The notes below the pieces were generated by a model. The model made no database searches, was not told where the DNA came from, and saw only the letters and a program-made list of their open reading frames with translations. The translations under genes and the position numbers were made by a program. Below, one piece after another: positions 44,365 to 53,122 of a stretch of 64,000 nt of DNA. The stretch is from Arthrobacter sp. SLBN-112 (GTDB lineage: Bacteria > Actinomycetota > Actinomycetes > Actinomycetales > Micrococcaceae), in contig NZ_JAUSXY010000001.1 in assembly GCF_030944625.1 (NCBI RefSeq), positions 1,612,001-1,676,000 on the forward strand, read 5' to 3'. Positions within the stretch are counted from its first letter, which is position 1. The number at the start of each line of letters is the position of its first letter.

Positions 44365-46458
44365 ATGAGCTATGCTCTCGCCGTCGACGTCGGAACCAGT
44401 TACACAGCGGCCGCTGTTGTCCGTTTCGACGAAGGTGCTTCGCCCCTCCCGGAGTGCCTGCCACTGGGGCTCCGGGGAACGTCCGTGCCCTCCGTGGTGT
44501 ACTACCCGGAAGAGGGGCCGGTCCTGGTGGGGGAAGCCGCAGAACGCCGCGGCCTGGACTCACCCCACCGCGTCATCCGGGAATTCAAGCGGCGCGTTGG
44601 CGACGACGTTCCCTTCGCCCTGGGCACCCTGACGGTCCGGCCCGAGGATGTGTTCGCCACCATGGCCCGGTGGGTGGCAAACCGGGCGGCCGAACGCGAG
44701 GGCGCGCTCCCGTCGGCCATCTTCCTGACCCACCCGGCATCCTGGGGGATCCACCGGCTGTCCGCCATCCGCTCCGCCCTGGCCGCCCAGGGCCTGGACG
44801 ACGTGACGCTCCTTCCCGAACCCGAGGCCGCGGCCCTGCACTACGCATCCCAGGTGCGGGTGGAGGAAGGAAGCACCGTCGCCGTGTACGACCTCGGCGG
44901 CGGCACCTTCGACACTGCCGTGCTGAAGAAGTCCGGCGGCAGCCGCTTTGAACTCCTGGGACGCCCCGACGGCATCGAGGACCTGGGCGGCGCCGACTTT
45001 GACGCCGCCGTGTTCCGCTACGTCGCAGAGCACACCGGCAATGCCCTGACGGACCCCGACCTCACCGACCCCGCGGTGATGGGCGCGCTGACCCGGCTTA
45101 GGCGTGAATGCGTCGAGGCCAAGGAAGCGCTCTCTGCGGACAGCGAAGCCACCATCCCGGTGCTCCTGCCCGGCGTCCAGCAGCAGGTCCGGCTGGTGCG
45201 GGCGGAGTTCGAGGCCCTGATCGAAGAACCCGTGCGGGACACGGTGGATGCCTTGGAACAGTCGCTGTCCCGGCTCCGCCTTGAACCGGCAGACCTGTCC
45301 GCGGTCCTGCTGATCGGCGGCTCGTCCCGGATCCCACTGGTGGCACAATTGGTGTCCGAACAACTGGACCGGCCCATCGCGGTGGACGCCGACCCGAAAT
45401 CCTCCATCTGCCTCGGCGCCGCCGTAGCGGCCGTCCTCGCGCATACGGCTGCCGCCATGGCCCTGGCCACCGCGTCCGGGCCTGTTGCCGCGGCAGCCGG
45501 GGTGCCGGCCGCCGTCGTACCTGTTCCTGCCGCACCGGGCGTTCCGGACGTTCCGGGCGCCCCGGTCATGCCCAGCTGGTCGCGCAAATACACCACGACG
45601 GCGGGGGCCGGGGCAGTGACGGGGCCGCTCGGCGGAGCGCGGGGTGCGAGAAGGGGCGCGCACGCCCCGAGACCGACGGTCCGTGTCACGGCGGTGGCCG
45701 CCGCTGCCGCCATCCTGACGATCCTCACGGCCACGGCCGCGCAAAGCCCGGATGGCTTAGGGAACCTGACTGCGATGTTCGTCCCGCAAGCGGGGGCCGA
45801 CACCGGCGGCTCCGGTCCCGCAGGCTCCTCCGGGCCGGCAAGGACGGAAGGGCCAGCCGCCGGGGGAGCCGCCGTTGCCGCGAACCCGCAGCCGCTGGCC
45901 GGCATCGAGGCCAGCGCCAGGAACCCGATTTCGCCGCGGGTCGGCCTGGACATTTCCGCCTCGCCCACCAGCAAACAGCAGGACCTGGGCGGTGCGGCAA
46001 CCGCGGGCACCGGCGCCGCCGATGTTGCCGCCGCCGGCGGTGCGCCGGCAGGAACGGGAACGTCCGGCACCGGTGTGGTGCCCGATTCAGTGACCGTGGC
46101 GCCCGCGCCGCCGGCGGAAACTGCGCCGCCAAGCACTACAGGCACGGGAACCACCACGCCGGCGGAGACCGCAACTCCGTCGGAGACCGCATCGCCCAGT
46201 ACCACCACCGAGCCCACGCCTGTTTCGGGTTCCACGAGCCCCACCGATCCGGCGACCTCTGCGTCCCCCACGCCAACGCCGCTCTCCACCACCGGGGCTT
46301 CGGATCCAGCCACTGATCCCGTCGCGTCCCCGACTTCCGTTGACCTGACGCCCGTACCCGCCACCGCCCCTTCCCCTACGCCAGAGGAAACCAACCCCAC
46401 GCCCACGCCTGCGGACGCTGCCGTGGCAACGGCCCCGACGACGTCGCCGGCGGCCTGA
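44365..46458 (+). CDS. Membrane-anchored Hsp70-like protein
   Basis: A 697-residue protein. Residues 1 to about 365 form an actin/Hsp70 ATPase: AVDVGTSYTAAAVV, VYDLGGGTFDTAVL and AVLLIGGSSRIPLVAQL are the phosphate-1, phosphate-2 and adenosine motifs. There is no DnaK substrate-binding domain. Instead come an Ala/Pro linker, one hydrophobic helix near residues 442-458 (RVTAVAAAAAILTILTATA) and about 230 residues rich in Thr, Pro, Ala and Ser that should lie outside the membrane. The start at 44365 follows a purine-poor region, so it is less certain. A LuxR-type regulator gene begins one base after the stop. Confidence 0.82.
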   Translation: MSYALAVDVGTSYTAAAVVRFDEGASPLPECLPLGLRGTSVPSVVYYPEEGPVLVGEAAERRGLDSPHRVIREFKRRVGDDVPFALGTLTVRPEDVFATMARWVANRAAEREGALPSAIFLTHPASWGIHRLSAIRSALAAQGLDDVTLLPEPEAAALHYASQVRVEEGSTVAVYDLGGGTFDTAVLKKSGGSRFELLGRPDGIEDLGGADFDAAVFRYVAEHTGNALTDPDLTDPAVMGALTRLRRECVEAKEALSADSEATIPVLLPGVQQQVRLVRAEFEALIEEPVRDTVDALEQSLSRLRLEPADLSAVLLIGGSSRIPLVAQLVSEQLDRPIAVDADPKSSICLGAAVAAVLAHTAAAMALATASGPVAAAAGVPAAVVPVPAAPGVPDVPGAPVMPSWSRKYTTTAGAGAVTGPLGGARGARRGAHAPRPTVRVTAVAAAAAILTILTATAAQSPDGLGNLTAMFVPQAGADTGGSGPAGSSGPARTEGPAAGGAAVAANPQPLAGIEASARNPISPRVGLDISASPTSKQQDLGGAATAGTGAADVAAAGGAPAGTGTSGTGVVPDSVTVAPAPPAETAPPSTTGTGTTTPAETATPSETASPSTTTEPTPVSGSTSPTDPATSASPTPTPLSTTGASDPATDPVASPTSVDLTPVPATAPSPTPEETNPTPTPADAAVATAPTTSPAA

Positions 46459-46459
46459 G

Positions 46460-48559
46460 ATGGACGGGCACCTGCAACGTGTGGAGCTGCCCGCATCCCT
46501 GCATGCTGCGCTGGACCACCCGGAGCACCTGCCCCACGCCGCGGAATTGATGACGAAACAGCTGAGGGGAGCCAATGCGGCAGTACGCGAACTGCTCCTG
46601 GCGCTCTCGGTGGGCTTCGCGTTGCCCGGTCCGCTGCCGGCAGACCTCCGCCACAAGGTCGGCAGGGGCGCGGTGGAAGACCTTGACGCCCTGGTGGACC
46701 GCGCGGAGGCTGCGGGACTGCTGATGCCGGACGGAACCGTGGCGGGGCCGGCCCGGCATGCCCTGCTGACCGTCACCCCGACCGCCAAGATCCACGCCCT
46801 CCAGCGGGAACTCGTGGCAGTCTTCGCGTCCGCAGGACAACCGCTCGGAAACCTTGCCCGTGAACTGGCACGGGGCGGCCTTGCAGACCCGCGCGTAGCC
46901 AGGGAACTGGAGCAGGCCGCCGACACCGCGCTGCAGCATGACCCCAGGCTCGCCTCGCAGCTGTACGAGGAGGCACTCCTGGCCGGTGCAGACCCCCTGG
47001 CCACGGCGGCCCGGCGCGCGCAGGCCGCAGCCGGTGACGGGGAACTCGACGCAGCCGCACGGATCATCGATACCCTCCTGGTCAGCACCGACCCTCCGGA
47101 CGTGCGCCGTGGCATGGACGTGGCCGCCTCCGTCTGGGCGCAGCGGGGAATGCTGGCCCGCGCCGCGGACGTCTACAACTGGCTGGGCACTGAACGCGTG
47201 GAGGCATCCGCGCCGCTGGCCGCCGTCGCCCTCCTTGGGGCAGGAGACCTCAAAGGCGCGCAGGCTTTCTTCCCGCCGGAGGCTCCGCAGGGCTCCCCAA
47301 CACTCCTCGCGTCCGCCCTGCTGCAGACCGGCCAGGGAATCCTCGCCTCCCTGGGAGAGAATCCGCAACAGGGAATCGCCGTGCTGATCCATGCCTCGGA
47401 CCTGCTGAACTCGGCGGGCGCAGCGCTTCCGCTGCCGGAAACACCCGGCGCACTGGCCGCCCTGCTGGCCCTGCACAGCGGGGAGCCGCACCTGGCCGAA
47501 ACCGTTTGCCGGGCGGCGGTGGCAGCGGGCCAAGGGGGCAGCGCCGCCCAGCCCAGGCTCCTGTTGCTCCAGGCCTGGGCTGCGATGATGCAGGACAAAC
47601 CCGAGGACGCACGGCTGGCTGCCACGGAGGCCGCCAAAATCAACCATTGGCCGCTTGTCCCGCGCGACGAATTCCTCAGTGCTGCGCTTGATGTGGGGCT
47701 GGCCCGCAGGAACGGTGAGGTTCCGGAGCTCCTCCGGGCATGGGACCGGGCCCGCGAGGCCATGCTGCACACGTCGGTGGACCTCTACAGCCTCCTGCCC
47801 TGGGGCGAACTCCTGATTGCTGCCTCCCGGCTGCGTGAGAGGCGCCGCGTGGCGCATTATGTGGACGAAGCGTGGAAGCTGCTTGGCCGCCTGGGGGAAC
47901 CTTCATTGTGGGCAGTTCCACTGCATTGGGCCGCGGTCCAGGCCGCCCTGCTGAACGAGAGCCCTGCCGATCTTGCCCCGCATGCGACGGCGCTGGCGAA
48001 GGCCGCCACCCACAGCCACCTCGCCGCAATCCTTGCCGCCGCGGGCAAGGCCTGGGTATCGGTGCTGGCCGGGAGGTTCCGTCCCGCCGAAGTGGAGGGT
48101 GCGGCCCGGCTGCTGGGTGCCGTAGGGATGCCGTGGGAGGGGGCACGGCTCGCCGGACACGCGGCCGCGCGGGCAGATGACCGCAGGGACATGATGCGCT
48201 TGCTCTCCTGTGCCCGGGACCTTCACCCGCAGGGCGGACCGGCCGGCGGGGCAACCGGTACGCCGGAGGTACCGGCAGGAACCGGTGCCGAGCATGGCGG
48301 AAAGGCCCAGCCGGACGCCTCGGGGTTGAGCGAGCGGGAGAAAGAAGTGGCCAGGCTGGTGCTGGAGGGCAAGACCTACCGGGAAATAGGGGAGTCCATC
48401 TACATTTCGCCCCGGACGGCGGAGCACCATATCGCCCGGATCCGGCGGCGCCTGGGCGCCGAAAACCGCTCCGACCTGCTGGCACGCCTGCGCCTTGCCC
48501 TCGGCACCGACAATTCCCCACCGGCAAACCCCCAGCGCCTGCACCCGCGGCAGGAGTGA
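46460..48559 (+). CDS. LuxR-family regulator with helical repeat domain, no NTPase motif
   Basis: A 699-residue protein with a LuxR-type HTH at about 621-683 (LSEREKEVARLVLEGKTYRE, SPRTAEHHIARIRRRL). The rest is alpha-helical and Ala/Leu rich, resembling the TPR-like superhelix of MalT/LAL regulators, but I see no Walker A or B motif. It therefore looks like a MalT-type regulator that has lost its STAND ATPase. It sits between the Hsp70-like gene and the IniB/IniA/IniC genes and probably controls them; the mycobacterial iniBAC locus also has a regulator gene nearby. Confidence 0.8.
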   Translation: MDGHLQRVELPASLHAALDHPEHLPHAAELMTKQLRGANAAVRELLLALSVGFALPGPLPADLRHKVGRGAVEDLDALVDRAEAAGLLMPDGTVAGPARHALLTVTPTAKIHALQRELVAVFASAGQPLGNLARELARGGLADPRVARELEQAADTALQHDPRLASQLYEEALLAGADPLATAARRAQAAAGDGELDAAARIIDTLLVSTDPPDVRRGMDVAASVWAQRGMLARAADVYNWLGTERVEASAPLAAVALLGAGDLKGAQAFFPPEAPQGSPTLLASALLQTGQGILASLGENPQQGIAVLIHASDLLNSAGAALPLPETPGALAALLALHSGEPHLAETVCRAAVAAGQGGSAAQPRLLLLQAWAAMMQDKPEDARLAATEAAKINHWPLVPRDEFLSAALDVGLARRNGEVPELLRAWDRAREAMLHTSVDLYSLLPWGELLIAASRLRERRRVAHYVDEAWKLLGRLGEPSLWAVPLHWAAVQAALLNESPADLAPHATALAKAATHSHLAAILAAAGKAWVSVLAGRFRPAEVEGAARLLGAVGMPWEGARLAGHAAARADDRRDMMRLLSCARDLHPQGGPAGGATGTPEVPAGTGAEHGGKAQPDASGLSEREKEVARLVLEGKTYREIGESIYISPRTAEHHIARIRRRLGAENRSDLLARLRLALGTDNSPPANPQRLHPRQE

Positions 48560-48561
48560 AA

Positions 48562-48621
48562 CCCCTAATGCCCCTAGCGCCGGGGGTGTCCGTACCCCGC
48601 AGCCGGGCCCGTCGTTAGGGG
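48562..48621. promoter_or_regulatory. Candidate regulatory region of the iniBAC-like genes
   Basis: CCCCTAA (48562-48568) and TTAGGGG (48615-48621) are inverted arms 46 bases apart, with further CCCCTA and CCTAGG elements nearby. The 165-base gap between the LuxR gene and the IniB-like gene is the most likely place for a regulated promoter. The arms are short, so the assignment is tentative. Confidence 0.4.
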
Positions 48622-48724
48622 AATGAGCCCCGATGCCCCTGCGCGGCCGCGAACCTAGGTTTGAACCAGCCAGGGTACCGCGCCGGCCGATCCGAAACTC
48701 GAAAAAGATGTGAGGACCACGCAG

Positions 48725-49660
48725 ATGCCAACACTCGCGAACGACCTCGTTCAGTTCCTCATGCAACTCTTCGGCGACCGGGAAGCAGTCCAGGAGTTCC
48801 TGGACAACCCGGAGCGGGCGTTGGCGGATCACGGGCTGGGCAACGTGTGCTCGGCCGATGTTGATGCGGCGATGCCTGTTGTCCTCGATTACGCGCCCAT
48901 CACAGTCAACACCCTTTGGTTCGAGCGGAACTACAACACCGGCGGCAACGGCTCAGGGGCCGGTCCCGCGGGCGCGGCAGCCGGGCACGGCGGCTATGGC
49001 CCGGGCAACGGCAGCACTGCCTACGACACTGACGACCACGCTTACGCGGTCCAACAGCTCCACCACGTGGTGAACCACTTCTCCTACACCGCCGGCGCCA
49101 CCATTGTGGACGAGCGGGCCACCATTGCCGGCCAGTCCGCGCAGCAGAACGTCTGGGCCCAAGGGGACGTGGAGCAGTGGTTCGACAACGGCCTGGCAGC
49201 GGCAACAGATGACCACGCAACGGTGGCCGCCGGCCATGCCCCGGCGGGCCTCGGGGACGCCGGAACCGGAGACGCGGGCACCGGGGACGCGGGCATCGCG
49301 GACGCCGGTACACCGGACATCTCCATGGAGGACGATGCCAATGGGCTGTCCCGCTCCTTGACCGCAGACCCCAGCCTGGACACGGATAACGCGTTCGCCG
49401 GGGAACTCGATCATTCCGGCCACGCCCTGGATCGCGGCCTGGTCCCCACTGCCGGGGACCCGTACAGCGATGCCTCCGGCCATGGCTCCCTTCCGGTGGA
49501 CCTGCACATGGACGACCCCTTCGACGACAACGCCGCCGCCAGCTTGGCCGGGGACTCCCAGCTCGATTTTGCCGAGGACGAGCCCGCCCACCCCGATGCG
49601 GACCTGGAGACCCACCACATTATCGACGTTCCGGTGGTTGACGACTCCGCCGGGCTGTAA
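48725..49660 (+). CDS. IniB N-terminal domain-containing protein
   Basis: A 311-residue protein. The first 50 or so residues (ANDLVQFLMQLFGDREAVQE, then FLDNPERALADHGL) match the short N-terminal domain of mycobacterial IniB. The rest is low-complexity and acidic (Asp, Gly, Ala, His rich) with repeats such as GDAGTGDAG, no membrane segment and no catalytic motif, and is probably disordered. The ATG at 48725 has GAGGA seven bases upstream and is preferred to the GTG at 48710. Two dynamin-like GTPase genes follow, the same order as iniB-iniA-iniC. Confidence 0.8.
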   Translation: MPTLANDLVQFLMQLFGDREAVQEFLDNPERALADHGLGNVCSADVDAAMPVVLDYAPITVNTLWFERNYNTGGNGSGAGPAGAAAGHGGYGPGNGSTAYDTDDHAYAVQQLHHVVNHFSYTAGATIVDERATIAGQSAQQNVWAQGDVEQWFDNGLAAATDDHATVAAGHAPAGLGDAGTGDAGTGDAGIADAGTPDISMEDDANGLSRSLTADPSLDTDNAFAGELDHSGHALDRGLVPTAGDPYSDASGHGSLPVDLHMDDPFDDNAAASLAGDSQLDFAEDEPAHPDADLETHHIIDVPVVDDSAGL

Positions 49661-49745
49661 CACGCTGGTGCCGGAAGTTAAACCGGCGGGCAGGAGGCGT
49701 CCACCTCCCGCCCGGGACATTGGGTACTGGAACGAAGGACGCGCT

Positions 49746-51632
49746 GTGGCAGAAGCAGGACCCGCAAGGCCGCCTGATCCCATGACGGCGGGCCAGCTCA
49801 TGAAGCTGGTTGAGCAGGGCCTGCAGCTGGTGGGCGGCGGTGACCGCGGGGACCTGCGAAAGAGGCTGGAGCAGGCCGCGGCGCGGTTGCAGGACCCAAG
49901 CATCAGGGTGATCGTGGTGGGGGAGTTCAAACAGGGCAAGAGCAAGCTCATCAACGCCCTGGTGAACGCCCCCGTGTGCCCGGTGGATGATGACATTGCC
50001 ACCTCCGTTCCCACGGCCGTCCGGTACGGGGAGCCGGCGTCCGCCGCCATCCTGGTGCCTACGGCCGGCACCCCTGACGGCGGGGAAGAGAGCATGGAGC
50101 GCCGTCCGGTGGACCTGGCGGACCTGCCTGCCCTCGTCTCCGAGCAGGGCAACCCGGGAAACAGCAGGAAGCTCACGGCTGCGGAGGTATGCCTGCCCCG
50201 CCGGGTCCTGACCGGGGGCCTCACCATCATCGACTCCCCGGGGGTGGGCGGGATGGGGTCCACCCACACGCTGACCACCCTCACCGCATTGCCCACCGCC
50301 GATGCCATGCTGCTGGTCTCGGATGCGTCCCAGGAATACACCGAACCGGAACTCCGCTTCCTGCGCCAGGCCATGCGGATCACCCCCAGCGTCGCAGCGG
50401 TGCTCTCCAAGACAGACCTCTACCCCGACTGGCGGCGCGTGGAGGAGCTGGACAGGGCACACCTGGACCAGGTGGCACCGGACATTCCGTTGTTCCCCGT
50501 CTCCGCCGACCTCCGCCTGGAGGCCTCACGGCTCCAGGACAACGAGCTCAACGCCGAATCCGGCTTTCCCGGCCTGGTGGCGCACCTGCGCAACGAGATC
50601 GTGGCGAAGGCCCAGCGCCTCCAGCGGCGCTCCGTCAGCCAGGACCTGCTTTCAGTCACCGTGAACCTCCAGCTGTCCCTGCAGTCCGAGCTTGAGGCCC
50701 TGGAGAATCCGGACGGGACCCCGCACATGCTGGAGGCCCTGGAACACGCCAAGACCGAGGCCGATGATCTGCGCAAGCGCTCCGCCCGCTGGCAGCTGAC
50801 CCTCAGCGACGGCATCAACGACCTCATTGCCGACATGGAATACGACCTGCGGGACCGTCTTCGCCGGATCCAGCGCGAAGCCGAGGCCGCGATCGACCAA
50901 GGCGATCCCGGGCCGGTCTGGGCCGAGTTCTCCCAATGGCTCGAAGAATGCGTTGCCGCGGCGGTCTCCGACACCTTCGTCTGGACCAGCGAACGGTCCC
51001 AATGGCTCGCGGCACAGGTGGCCGGGCACTTTGCCGCGGACGAGGTGTCCTTGCCCGTCGTGCACGTCTCGGAATCGGGGGACGCCCTTGATCCGGTGGA
51101 CGAGATGCCCGGGTTGGATCCCGGCCGGGTGAACCCGGTCCAGAAGGTCTTGATCGGCATGCGCGGATCCTACGGCGGCGTCTTGATGTTCGGCCTCCTC
51201 ACGGGGATTTTCGGGATGGCCCTGATCAATCCCCTCTCGGTGGGCGCTGGCCTGCTGCTGGGACGCAAGGCCTACCGGGAGGACAAGGAAGCGCGGCTGA
51301 AGCGCCGCCAGGGCGAAGCCAAAACACTGGTCAGGCGCCAGCTGGATGACGTGACGTTCCAGGTGGGAAAACAACTGAAAGACAGGCTGCGCCTGGTGCA
51401 GCGGACCACCCGGGACCACTTCACCGACATCGCAGACGAATACCACCGTTCGCTCTCGGACTCTGTGGCAGCGGCCCAGAAAGCCGCCAACTCCTACGCC
51501 CAGGAGAGGGAAGGGCGCATCCGGGACATCAGGAGCGAGCTTAAGAGGGTGGAGGCGTTGCACCGGGCTGCCGAAGCTGTGTCTGCCGAGGTCCGCGCCT
51601 CCGGCGTCCGCACCGCCGCGGGGGTGGGATGA
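49746..51632 (+). CDS. iniA: Dynamin-like GTPase, IniA type
   Basis: A 628-residue dynamin-family protein. GTPase motifs: G1 GEFKQGKSK near residue 59, G3 DSPGVGGMG near 162, G4 SKTD near 221. A helical bundle follows, then a hydrophobic membrane-insertion segment at about 478-505 (LMFGLLTGIFGMALINPLSV), then a charged coiled coil to the end. IniA of mycobacteria is a membrane-remodelling GTPase induced by cell-wall inhibitors. The GTG at 49746 has AAGGA upstream; an ATG at 49782 is an alternative. It overlaps the next gene by four bases. Confidence 0.82.
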   Translation: MAEAGPARPPDPMTAGQLMKLVEQGLQLVGGGDRGDLRKRLEQAAARLQDPSIRVIVVGEFKQGKSKLINALVNAPVCPVDDDIATSVPTAVRYGEPASAAILVPTAGTPDGGEESMERRPVDLADLPALVSEQGNPGNSRKLTAAEVCLPRRVLTGGLTIIDSPGVGGMGSTHTLTTLTALPTADAMLLVSDASQEYTEPELRFLRQAMRITPSVAAVLSKTDLYPDWRRVEELDRAHLDQVAPDIPLFPVSADLRLEASRLQDNELNAESGFPGLVAHLRNEIVAKAQRLQRRSVSQDLLSVTVNLQLSLQSELEALENPDGTPHMLEALEHAKTEADDLRKRSARWQLTLSDGINDLIADMEYDLRDRLRRIQREAEAAIDQGDPGPVWAEFSQWLEECVAAAVSDTFVWTSERSQWLAAQVAGHFAADEVSLPVVHVSESGDALDPVDEMPGLDPGRVNPVQKVLIGMRGSYGGVLMFGLLTGIFGMALINPLSVGAGLLLGRKAYREDKEARLKRRQGEAKTLVRRQLDDVTFQVGKQLKDRLRLVQRTTRDHFTDIADEYHRSLSDSVAAAQKAANSYAQEREGRIRDIRSELKRVEALHRAAEAVSAEVRASGVRTAAGVG

Positions 51633-53122
51633 CAGCGGCCATCATGGCCGGGGCGGCGAGGCTCATCCGGGACACCTTGGAGGCCTACCGCGACGACCCG
51701 GAAGCCGCAGAGGTGCTTCAGGGCTATGCCCGGCGCCTGGCCGAGCCACTTAGGATCGCCGTGGCCGGCATGGTCAAAGCAGGGAAATCCACCCTCCTGA
51801 ACGCCATCATCGGCGAGGAAATCGCTCCTACGGACACCGGCGAATGCACCAGGATCGTCACGTGGTACCGGCACGGGCCCACGCCCCGCATCACGCTGCA
51901 CCCCATCGACGGCGCGCCCCGCACCCTGCCGCTGAAACGCGTGGACGGGCGCCTGGTCTTCGTCCTGGACGGGATGCGGGCGGAGGAAGTGGAGAGGCTG
52001 GACGTCGAATGGCCCTCGCCCGCGCTGCAGGCCATGACGTTGATCGACACCCCCGGTATCGCTTCCCTGTCGAGGGCCGTGTCCGCCCGGACCCTGGCGT
52101 TCCTGACCCCGGAGGATTCGGCGTCGGAGGCCGACGCCGTCATCTACCTGATGCGCCACATGCACGCCTCCGACCTTCGCTTCCTCGAATCCTTTCGGGA
52201 CACCCGGGCCGGGCGCTCCGGCACCGTCAACGCCATCGCGGTGCTGTCCCGGGCCGATGAAGTGGGGGCCGGCCGGATCGACTCGTTGATCTCCGCCGGC
52301 AGCATCGCCGAGAGGTACAGCCGCGATCCCAACCTGCGGAAACTGGCGTTGGCGGTAGTCCCGGTTGCAGGACTCCTGGCCCAAAGTGCCCGCACCCTGC
52401 GCCAGGCGGACTTCGAAGCCCTCCGCATGCTGGCAGGCCTTGACCGGGCAGCGCGCGAACGCGCCCTGCTCTCCGCGGACAGGTTCCGCCGGTCCACCGA
52501 CCCCGAAGGACTGACGGAGGAGGCACGGACGGCACTCCTGGAGCGTTACGGGCTTTTTGGCATCCGGCTTGCCTCGGTCCTTATCCGGAACGGGTTCACG
52601 GAAGCCACGCCCCTTGCCCATGAGCTTGCCCGGCGCAGCGGATTGGACCCGCTGCTGGACGTGCTGGACCGCCAGTTCCAGGCGAGGTCCGAGGCTTTGA
52701 AGGCCAGGACCGCGCTGGCGGCGGTGGAGAACCTCCTGGCAAGCCGCCCCCGCGAGGGGACCGAGCGCCTGGCGGCATCCCTGGAACGGCTCCAGGCGAA
52801 CGCCCACGAGTTCCGGGAACTCCAGTTGCTCGCGGTGTTGCGGACCACGGGGGTGGACCTGCCGCCCGAACTGGCTGCGGAAGCTGAACGGCTCCTCGGC
52901 GGCAGCGGCGCGGCAGCCTGGGTGCGGCTGGACCTGGACGCCGGTTCCGGGCCCGAGGCGCTTGCCGCAGGGGCCCGGGAGTGCCTTGCACGCTGGCGTG
53001 CGGTCGCCGAGAGCCCCCTGACCGGCCGGTCCGCCGCCGAGGCATGCCGGGTGGTGATCCGCAGCTGCGAGGGCGTAGTGGCTGAGTGCGCCGACCGGAA
53101 CCGCCGGCCGCGGTCAGCCTAG
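51629..53122 (+). CDS. iniC: Dynamin-like GTPase, IniC type
   Basis: A 497-residue dynamin-family GTPase. G1 is GMVKAGKSTLLNA near residue 46, a threonine in TGECTRIV may be G2, G3 is DTPGI near 139 and G4 is SRADEVG near 207. The helical C-terminal half lacks the hydrophobic segment seen in its partner, as in mycobacterial IniC. It starts inside the iniA-type gene (ATGA), which suggests the two GTPases are made in equal amounts and may act as a pair. Its stop codon overlaps the stop of the convergent gene. Confidence 0.82.
   Translation: MTAAIMAGAARLIRDTLEAYRDDPEAAEVLQGYARRLAEPLRIAVAGMVKAGKSTLLNAIIGEEIAPTDTGECTRIVTWYRHGPTPRITLHPIDGAPRTLPLKRVDGRLVFVLDGMRAEEVERLDVEWPSPALQAMTLIDTPGIASLSRAVSARTLAFLTPEDSASEADAVIYLMRHMHASDLRFLESFRDTRAGRSGTVNAIAVLSRADEVGAGRIDSLISAGSIAERYSRDPNLRKLALAVVPVAGLLAQSARTLRQADFEALRMLAGLDRAARERALLSADRFRRSTDPEGLTEEARTALLERYGLFGIRLASVLIRNGFTEATPLAHELARRSGLDPLLDVLDRQFQARSEALKARTALAAVENLLASRPREGTERLAASLERLQANAHEFRELQLLAVLRTTGVDLPPELAAEAERLLGGSGAAAWVRLDLDAGSGPEALAAGARECLARWRAVAESPLTGRSAAEACRVVIRSCEGVVAECADRNRRPRSA

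Follow-up and report, generated by a model that had tools for sequence, protein, structure and literature searches.

A 64,000-nucleotide stretch of the genome of Arthrobacter sp. SLBN-112 (contig NZ_JAUSXY010000001.1, positions 1,612,001 to 1,676,000; referred to here as the window) contains five co-directional genes, all on the + strand at 44365-53122, that probably form an envelope-stress module of the IniR/IniBAC type in which a membrane-bound Hsp70-like protein acts as the signalling partner of an IniR-type activator and gates the expression of iniB, iniA and iniC. The position and orientation of these genes, given in a preliminary description made from the letters, have been confirmed from the translations and coordinates, and chance can be discounted because gene order and strand were identical in the six named Pseudarthrobacter and Arthrobacter loci fetched (6/6). 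The stop of the hsp70-like gene and the start of the iniR-like gene are 1 nucleotide apart, and the iniA-like and iniC-like genes overlap by the 4 nucleotides ATGA.

The first gene (44365..46458, + strand) encodes an Hsp70-like membrane ATPase of 697 amino acids, identified by its match to PF00012, its motifs, the prediction of a transmembrane segment and tail, and a Foldseek search. The PF00012 match (E value of 1e-43, profile positions 4-375 of 599) is confined to the N-terminal part of the protein, about 370 residues, which corresponds to the nucleotide-binding domain (about residues 1-370) and carries the canonical catalytic motifs DVGT, DLGGGTFD and GGSSRIP. This domain and its catalytic motifs are shared with DnaK and HscA, whereas the substrate-binding domain was left unmatched by the profile and a transmembrane helix and an outer tail are found instead. 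The single predicted transmembrane helix (residues 441-460, positions 45685-45744, + strand) was located by hydropathy and is preceded by a basic linker, and the tail beyond it is rich in proline, threonine, serine and alanine and predicted to be disordered. Residues 372-697 of the predicted structure fall below a predicted local distance difference test (pLDDT) value of 50; the model, with a mean pLDDT of only 50, was used for the nucleotide-binding domain alone, and Foldseek returned matches to the nucleotide-binding domains of DnaK proteins. A PF00012 search of the host genome (4.39 Mb, single contig) found one further Hsp70, with the sequence and motifs of DnaK. In 41 relatives, the stretch just past the membrane span (45745-45798, SPDGLGNLTAMFVPQAGA) shows better conservation than the greater part of the tail, and it may be considered a candidate sensing element.

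The second gene (46460..48559, + strand) encodes a 699-amino-acid homologue of IniR without the nucleoside triphosphatase (NTPase) domain, recognized by the NF038181 model and a GerE helix-turn-helix (HTH) domain. The NF038181 alignment (379.8 bits) covers residues 14-681 of the protein against positions 164-825 of the 827 of the model, a score that falls under the curated cut-off of 750 bits. No Walker A motif was found in this activator, and positions 1-190 of the NTPase profile are uncovered. The protein begins with a helical part (residues 25-105), which is probably a winged helix, continues with a MalT-like superhelix of the tetratricopeptide repeat (TPR) type (about residues 108-590), includes a region similar to domain III of MalT, and ends in the GerE domain, a LuxR-type HTH at about residues 620-680. 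It had been presented in the preliminary description as a LuxR regulator lacking an NTPase motif; the C-terminal HTH and the absence of the NTPase stand, and the generic designation has to be replaced by that of an IniR homologue. The top Foldseek matches of the activator were TPR proteins of the Tom70/Tom71 type, from which nothing was drawn, as TPR folds are common. Among the named genomes found, its nearest relatives belong to Pseudarthrobacter and Arthrobacter, and in the matches listed they are named, for instance, LuxR C-terminal-related or CsgD-family regulators.

The third gene (48725..49660, + strand) encodes a 311-amino-acid protein with an IniB N-terminal domain (NF038175, IniB_NTERM, 67 bits against a cut-off of 40). 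The fourth (49746..51632, + strand), which starts with GTG and has an alternative ATG at 49782, encodes an IniA-like dynamin GTPase of 628 amino acids (Dynamin_N, 1.4e-19) with an intact P-loop (GEFKQGKS), whose residues 16-601 match the solved IniA 6j72 at 2.5e-143, a near full-length homology with the IniA of 6j72/6j73 (PMC6715688). The fifth (51629..53122, + strand) encodes a dynamin GTPase of 497 amino acids (Dynamin_N, 7.5e-14; P-loop GMVKAGKS) that matched 2j68 at 1.1e-11 and IniA 6j72 at 7.3e-8; neither a solved IniC structure nor an IniC family model was among its matches, and its identification as IniC-like rests on its pairing with iniA here and in homologous loci. The iniC-like match was found in two pieces at G866:C1:3708842-3710330 and G870:C1:3066270-3067753, a possible frameshift or sequencing error.

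The distribution of the module was analysed by profile searches. NF038181 gave matches in 285 of 296 genomes of the class, mostly to the HTH alone, and the 27 places with at least 253 bits, the window included, were taken as real; at the 750-bit cut-off, the model passes 12 of the 296 genomes. A core profile (A1), built without the HTH and mostly without the NTPase, matched in 15 of 297 genomes of the order, in 2 of 120 genomes of the family of genome G255 and in 105 of 201 genomes of the family of genome G266 (f10). The NF038181, order and G255-family matches were all fetched, together with 72 of the 105 from the G266 family picked by genus, and these 98 stretches (8 to 20 kb), the six named loci (21-22 kb) and the window make up 105 annotated loci, some of which end at contig ends.

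An Hsp70-like gene, called above 100 bits after canonical DnaK had been excluded with a string filter, was found in 104 of the 105 IniR loci, including two weak cases at contig ends (L042 and L113, 107 and 139 bits), and in 91 it immediately precedes iniR on the same strand. IniB was found in 97 loci, IniA in 95, IniC in 89 and all three in 84, part of the gaps being due to contig or stretch ends. An in-frame start codon lies within 10 nucleotides of the hsp70 stop in 77 of the 91 upstream cases, compared with 550 of 1820 positions drawn at random in that frame, a count made on possible rather than established start codons. A transmembrane span was predicted by hydropathy in 88 of the 91 upstream Hsp70s, with the exceptions of L047, L052 and L069. 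Among 61 genomes of the genus, 34 gave a match to the IniR core, 34 to the Hsp70 domain and 34 to IniC, and by eye the three lists are identical. Genome G873 carries each of the three twice, in two complete modules, which favours their coupling. Of the 30 best ccsB loci, 26 have the Hsp70-like gene next after ccsB; eight genomes were fetched at the site between ccsB and the putative menA, four of them chosen because they had lacked the module, and seven contained none of the five genes and one all five. Co-occurrence in relatives had been named in the preliminary description as one check on its proposal, and the outcome of this one was favourable. Five loci (L040, L118, L119, L120 and L122) have an iniR with intact NTPase flanked on both sides by Hsp70-like genes, none of which carries the canonical phosphate-2 motif.

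The region between the activator gene and iniB contains a predicted activator operator formed by tandem half-sites (48562..48576, + strand, CCCCTAATGCCCCTA), recognized by the conservation of CCCCTA, and a match to the half-site in inverted orientation (48615..48621, - strand, TTAGGGG). An alignment of 11 iniB upstream regions from the family of the window (f1) revealed two further elements to which a promoter role may be attributed: a conserved block (48629..48638, + strand, CCCGATGCCC), possibly the -35 region, and TAGGTTT in a partly conserved block (48656..48662, + strand), possibly the -10 region. The order in these aligned regions is CCCCTA half-sites, CCGATGCCC and TAGGTTT-like block. 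CCCCTA occurs 224 times before iniB in 91 of the 97 loci with an IniB match, loci that are related, so that the counts are not independent; 3.2 occurrences are expected from the rest of the loci, and 200 dinucleotide shuffles gave a mean of 14.8 and a maximum of 26. The runner-up among 30 anagrams was ATCCCC (155 occurrences in 82 loci), for which a partial overlap with extended sites such as GATCCCCTAA is possible. Same-strand CCCCTA spacings are mostly 18, 9, 15 and 33, and such tandem pairs were found in 65 of the 97 loci. By family, the element was found in 11/11 loci of f1, 70/72 of f10, 4/5 of f4, 2/5 of f19, 2/2 of f33, 1/1 of f46 and 1/1 of f8, and by type of activator in 32/32 NTPase-less and 59/65 other loci. 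The CCCCTA(A) elements are likely, judging from their conservation and placement, to be the operator of the IniR-type activator. A wider regulon was considered and set aside: the 4.39-Mb genome has two copies of CCCCTANNNCCCCTA, one of them at the iniB promoter, and a single copy of the reversed control, so the other site may be due to chance. A chromatin immunoprecipitation peak of IniR has been located directly before iniBAC in mycobacteria (Boot et al. 2017, PMC5760070, in the parts consulted), the same front at which the window's locus has conserved sites read from sequence. A term search of the available text of this paper returned no IniR binding motif, and excerpts of PMC13413693 place a different site at the mycobacterial promoter for HpoR, a further regulator.

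The NTPase domain of the activators, labelled by hand in the 105 loci, is missing in 32, has a degenerate Walker A motif in 15 and is intact in 56, with two unscored at contig ends; the intact class takes in L047, with A for the first G, and L056, with an internal gap. A quick maximum-likelihood tree, for which some long branches were flagged, requires 9 changes for the deleted state, at least 8 of them forced by well-supported branches, and these absences may be interpreted as repeated losses. The elements that remain constant are the operator-like sites, the TPR-HTH region of the activator and the membrane Hsp70; the NTPase can be dispensed with. The single NTPase-deleted locus without a directly upstream Hsp70 is L050, whose frame also misses the start of the core. 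In L063, the IniR core and a degenerate NTPase are found in an open frame of 1536 amino acids, in a stretch with no ini or Hsp70 gene.

In the scheme that we infer for the contact between the two proteins, its direction, the stimulus, DNA binding and induction, the membrane protein, with its Hsp70 nucleotide-binding domain inside and its disordered tail outside, would be the signalling partner of the IniR-type activator. At rest it would hold the activator through the TPR-like superhelix, and damage to the envelope would change the state of the Hsp70 and free the activator, which would bind the CCCCTA(A) sites upstream of iniB and switch on iniB-iniA-iniC, so that the IniA/IniC dynamin pair could remodel the membrane. 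The direction of control proposed here, holding rather than activating, is a tentative choice to which we give somewhat less than an even chance. In the lineage of the window the Hsp70 domain would be the only predicted ATPase of the regulatory arm, because the activator lacks its own NTPase. A comparison can be made with MalT, the STAND (signal transduction ATPase with numerous domains) activator of Escherichia coli, which is held by its membrane partner MalK as the activator would be held by the Hsp70-like protein; MalK is an ATP-binding cassette ATPase, not an Hsp70, and MalT keeps the NTPase that the window's activator lacks. Overexpressed IniR alone induces an iniBAC reporter (PMC5760070, parts consulted), which fits a titratable holder and a plain activator equally. 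A signalling route from the Hsp70-like protein through the regulator to the dynamins had already been outlined in the preliminary description, and it becomes more plausible with the gene coupling and the shared operator-like sites.

Several results weigh against this reading. Hsp70 adjacency has no power to predict the loss of the NTPase (independent pairs, median p of 1), as the Hsp70-like gene is directly upstream in 31 of the 32 NTPase-deleted loci but also in 60 of the 69 others, and adjacency was rejected as a cause of that loss. Ten loci have upstream sequence without a directly upstream Hsp70 (L043-L045, L050, L055, L057, L061, L063, L068 and L096), and the CCCCTA site is missing in 6 of 97. 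Genome G873 carries two complete five-gene modules with the same gene order, L178 (G873:C1:146000-162000) and L179 (G873:C22:99000-114000), one with an NTPase-less activator and CCCCTA sites and the other with an activator of full length (Walker A GVRGSGKT) and with CCCCTA missing between iniR and iniB. The partial correlation between Hsp70 and IniR beyond IniA and IniC was 0.28 over 65 loci, a value reached by 0 of 999 permutations, and 0.10 over 41 thinned loci, and this weak co-evolution signal was set aside as support. An exact copy of DLGGGTFD, the phosphate-2 motif, was found in only 13 of the 91 upstream Hsp70s, including that of the window (f1 11/11, f4 2/5, f10 0/71, rest 0/4), and in only 11 of the 31 that stand beside NTPase-less activators; with so few exact copies, an ATP-driven switch cannot be assumed in general.

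In an alternative that we consider unlikely, the Hsp70-like protein would work together with IniB or the dynamins, for example by assembling or disassembling them at the membrane, and would send no signal to the activator, which would act alone through its TPR-like domain, for instance on binding a small molecule such as trehalose. A trehalose-mycolate cue may not apply here, since the Micrococcaceae, the family of the window's host, lack mycolates to our knowledge. Five loci (L055, L061, L062, L068 and L096) agree with this alternative in having the Hsp70 after iniC and not before iniR, and Boot et al. (PMC5760070) report that trehalose acts as an inducer and that IniR has a region resembling domain III of MalT. 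Against this alternative, iniR is directly preceded by the Hsp70-like gene in 91 of the 105 loci, with the close start codon described above in 77 of the 91, even where iniB-iniA-iniC are divergent.

The substitution of the missing NTPase switch by the Hsp70-like ATPase, as in a STAND regulator split into two pieces, would account for the combination of canonical Hsp70 motifs and NTPase-less activator in 11 of 11 f1 loci, the window included, and for the upstream Hsp70 in 31 of the 32 NTPase-deleted loci. However, DLGGGTFD is inexact in the other 20 of the 31 NTPase-less loci with an upstream Hsp70, many loci have an intact NTPase plus the Hsp70, and the sign test was not significant. Because exact DLGGGTFD is mostly limited to f1, a simple ATPase swap could hold at most for the family of the window, and we regard this explanation as improbable. 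Most improbable is a membrane-surveillance or anti-phage dynamin module in place of a response to cell-wall stress. Both GTPases are matched by LeoA/LeoBC profiles of PADLOC, with values from 1.3e-14 to 7.8e-7, and of the other three proteins only the regulator, through its HTH, touched a PADLOC model (18.4 bits). The first GTPase matches IniA far more strongly, the neighbours are of the IniR and IniB types, and the position after ccsB is fixed in 26 of the 30 ccsB loci examined; a role in defence was set aside, the PADLOC matches being far weaker than that to IniA.

The signalling module favoured here resembles the mycobacterial IniR-iniBAC system, as described in the parts consulted of PMC5760070, in its IniR-homologous activator, its IniB-domain gene and its adjoining IniA and IniC dynamins, and differs from it in four respects: the AAA+/NTPase domain is missing from the window's activator, the first gene encodes an Hsp70-like membrane protein with canonical motifs, the five genes run in one direction, and the host family is not known to have mycolates. 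The preliminary description had placed both the Hsp70-like and the regulator genes outside the described mycobacterial system, which does not hold, since the regulator is homologous to IniR, a proven iniBAC activator, and a dnaK-like gene beside iniR of Mycobacterium smegmatis has already been published (PMC5760070). In the parts available, that gene is mentioned in one sentence, unstudied and downstream of iniR, whereas in the window the Hsp70-like gene is upstream and membrane-spanning, and Hsp70-like genes are found in 104 of the 105 sampled loci. What is already known thus comprises iniBAC, IniR, the dynamin IniA and this sentence. Apart from that sentence, a search of open-licence PMC papers found none that links an Hsp70 or a CCCCTAA operator to iniBAC, and none that describes the CCCCTA operator, IniR variants lacking the NTPase, or an Hsp70 belonging regularly to the system. 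The regular Hsp70-IniR coupling, the NTPase-less variants and the predicted CCCCTA operator therefore appear to be new.

The membrane Hsp70-like protein is a candidate for the sensor of the IniBAC system; a widely conserved upstream membrane partner, a predicted operator and natural NTPase-less variants make the question of how IniR learns of envelope damage testable in harmless soil bacteria. IniBAC-type machinery would also extend beyond mycolate-bearing bacteria, as the Micrococcaceae are not known to have mycolates. More speculatively, and with about one chance in three in our estimation, the IniBAC envelope sensor across Actinomycetes may be a transmembrane protein of the Hsp70 fold whose tail reads the wall and whose cytoplasmic domain gates the IniR-type activator, this gate sufficing so that the NTPase was repeatedly lost. 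If true, this would mean that the Hsp70 fold underlies a novel kind of transmembrane signal receptor, one that in many lineages lacks the canonical ATPase motif.

The 5' neighbours of the module in the window are the cytochrome c biogenesis genes resB and ccsB. The 3' neighbours, on the opposite strand, are UbiA-family, AMP-binding and enoyl-CoA hydratase genes, which can be read from their Pfam families as menA, menE and menB. No Rfam match at gathering thresholds was found within the window. In L055, L061, L062, L068 and L096 the gene order is iniR, a gene whose IniB match is weak at best, iniA, iniC and hsp70; the Walker A motif is degenerate in four of them and unreadable in L062, at a contig start, and no tandem CCCCTA pair is present. 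Seven loci (L088, L089, L097, L098, L117, L133 and L134) contain, besides the membrane Hsp70-like gene, an extra DnaK-like gene with canonical motifs several kb from iniR.

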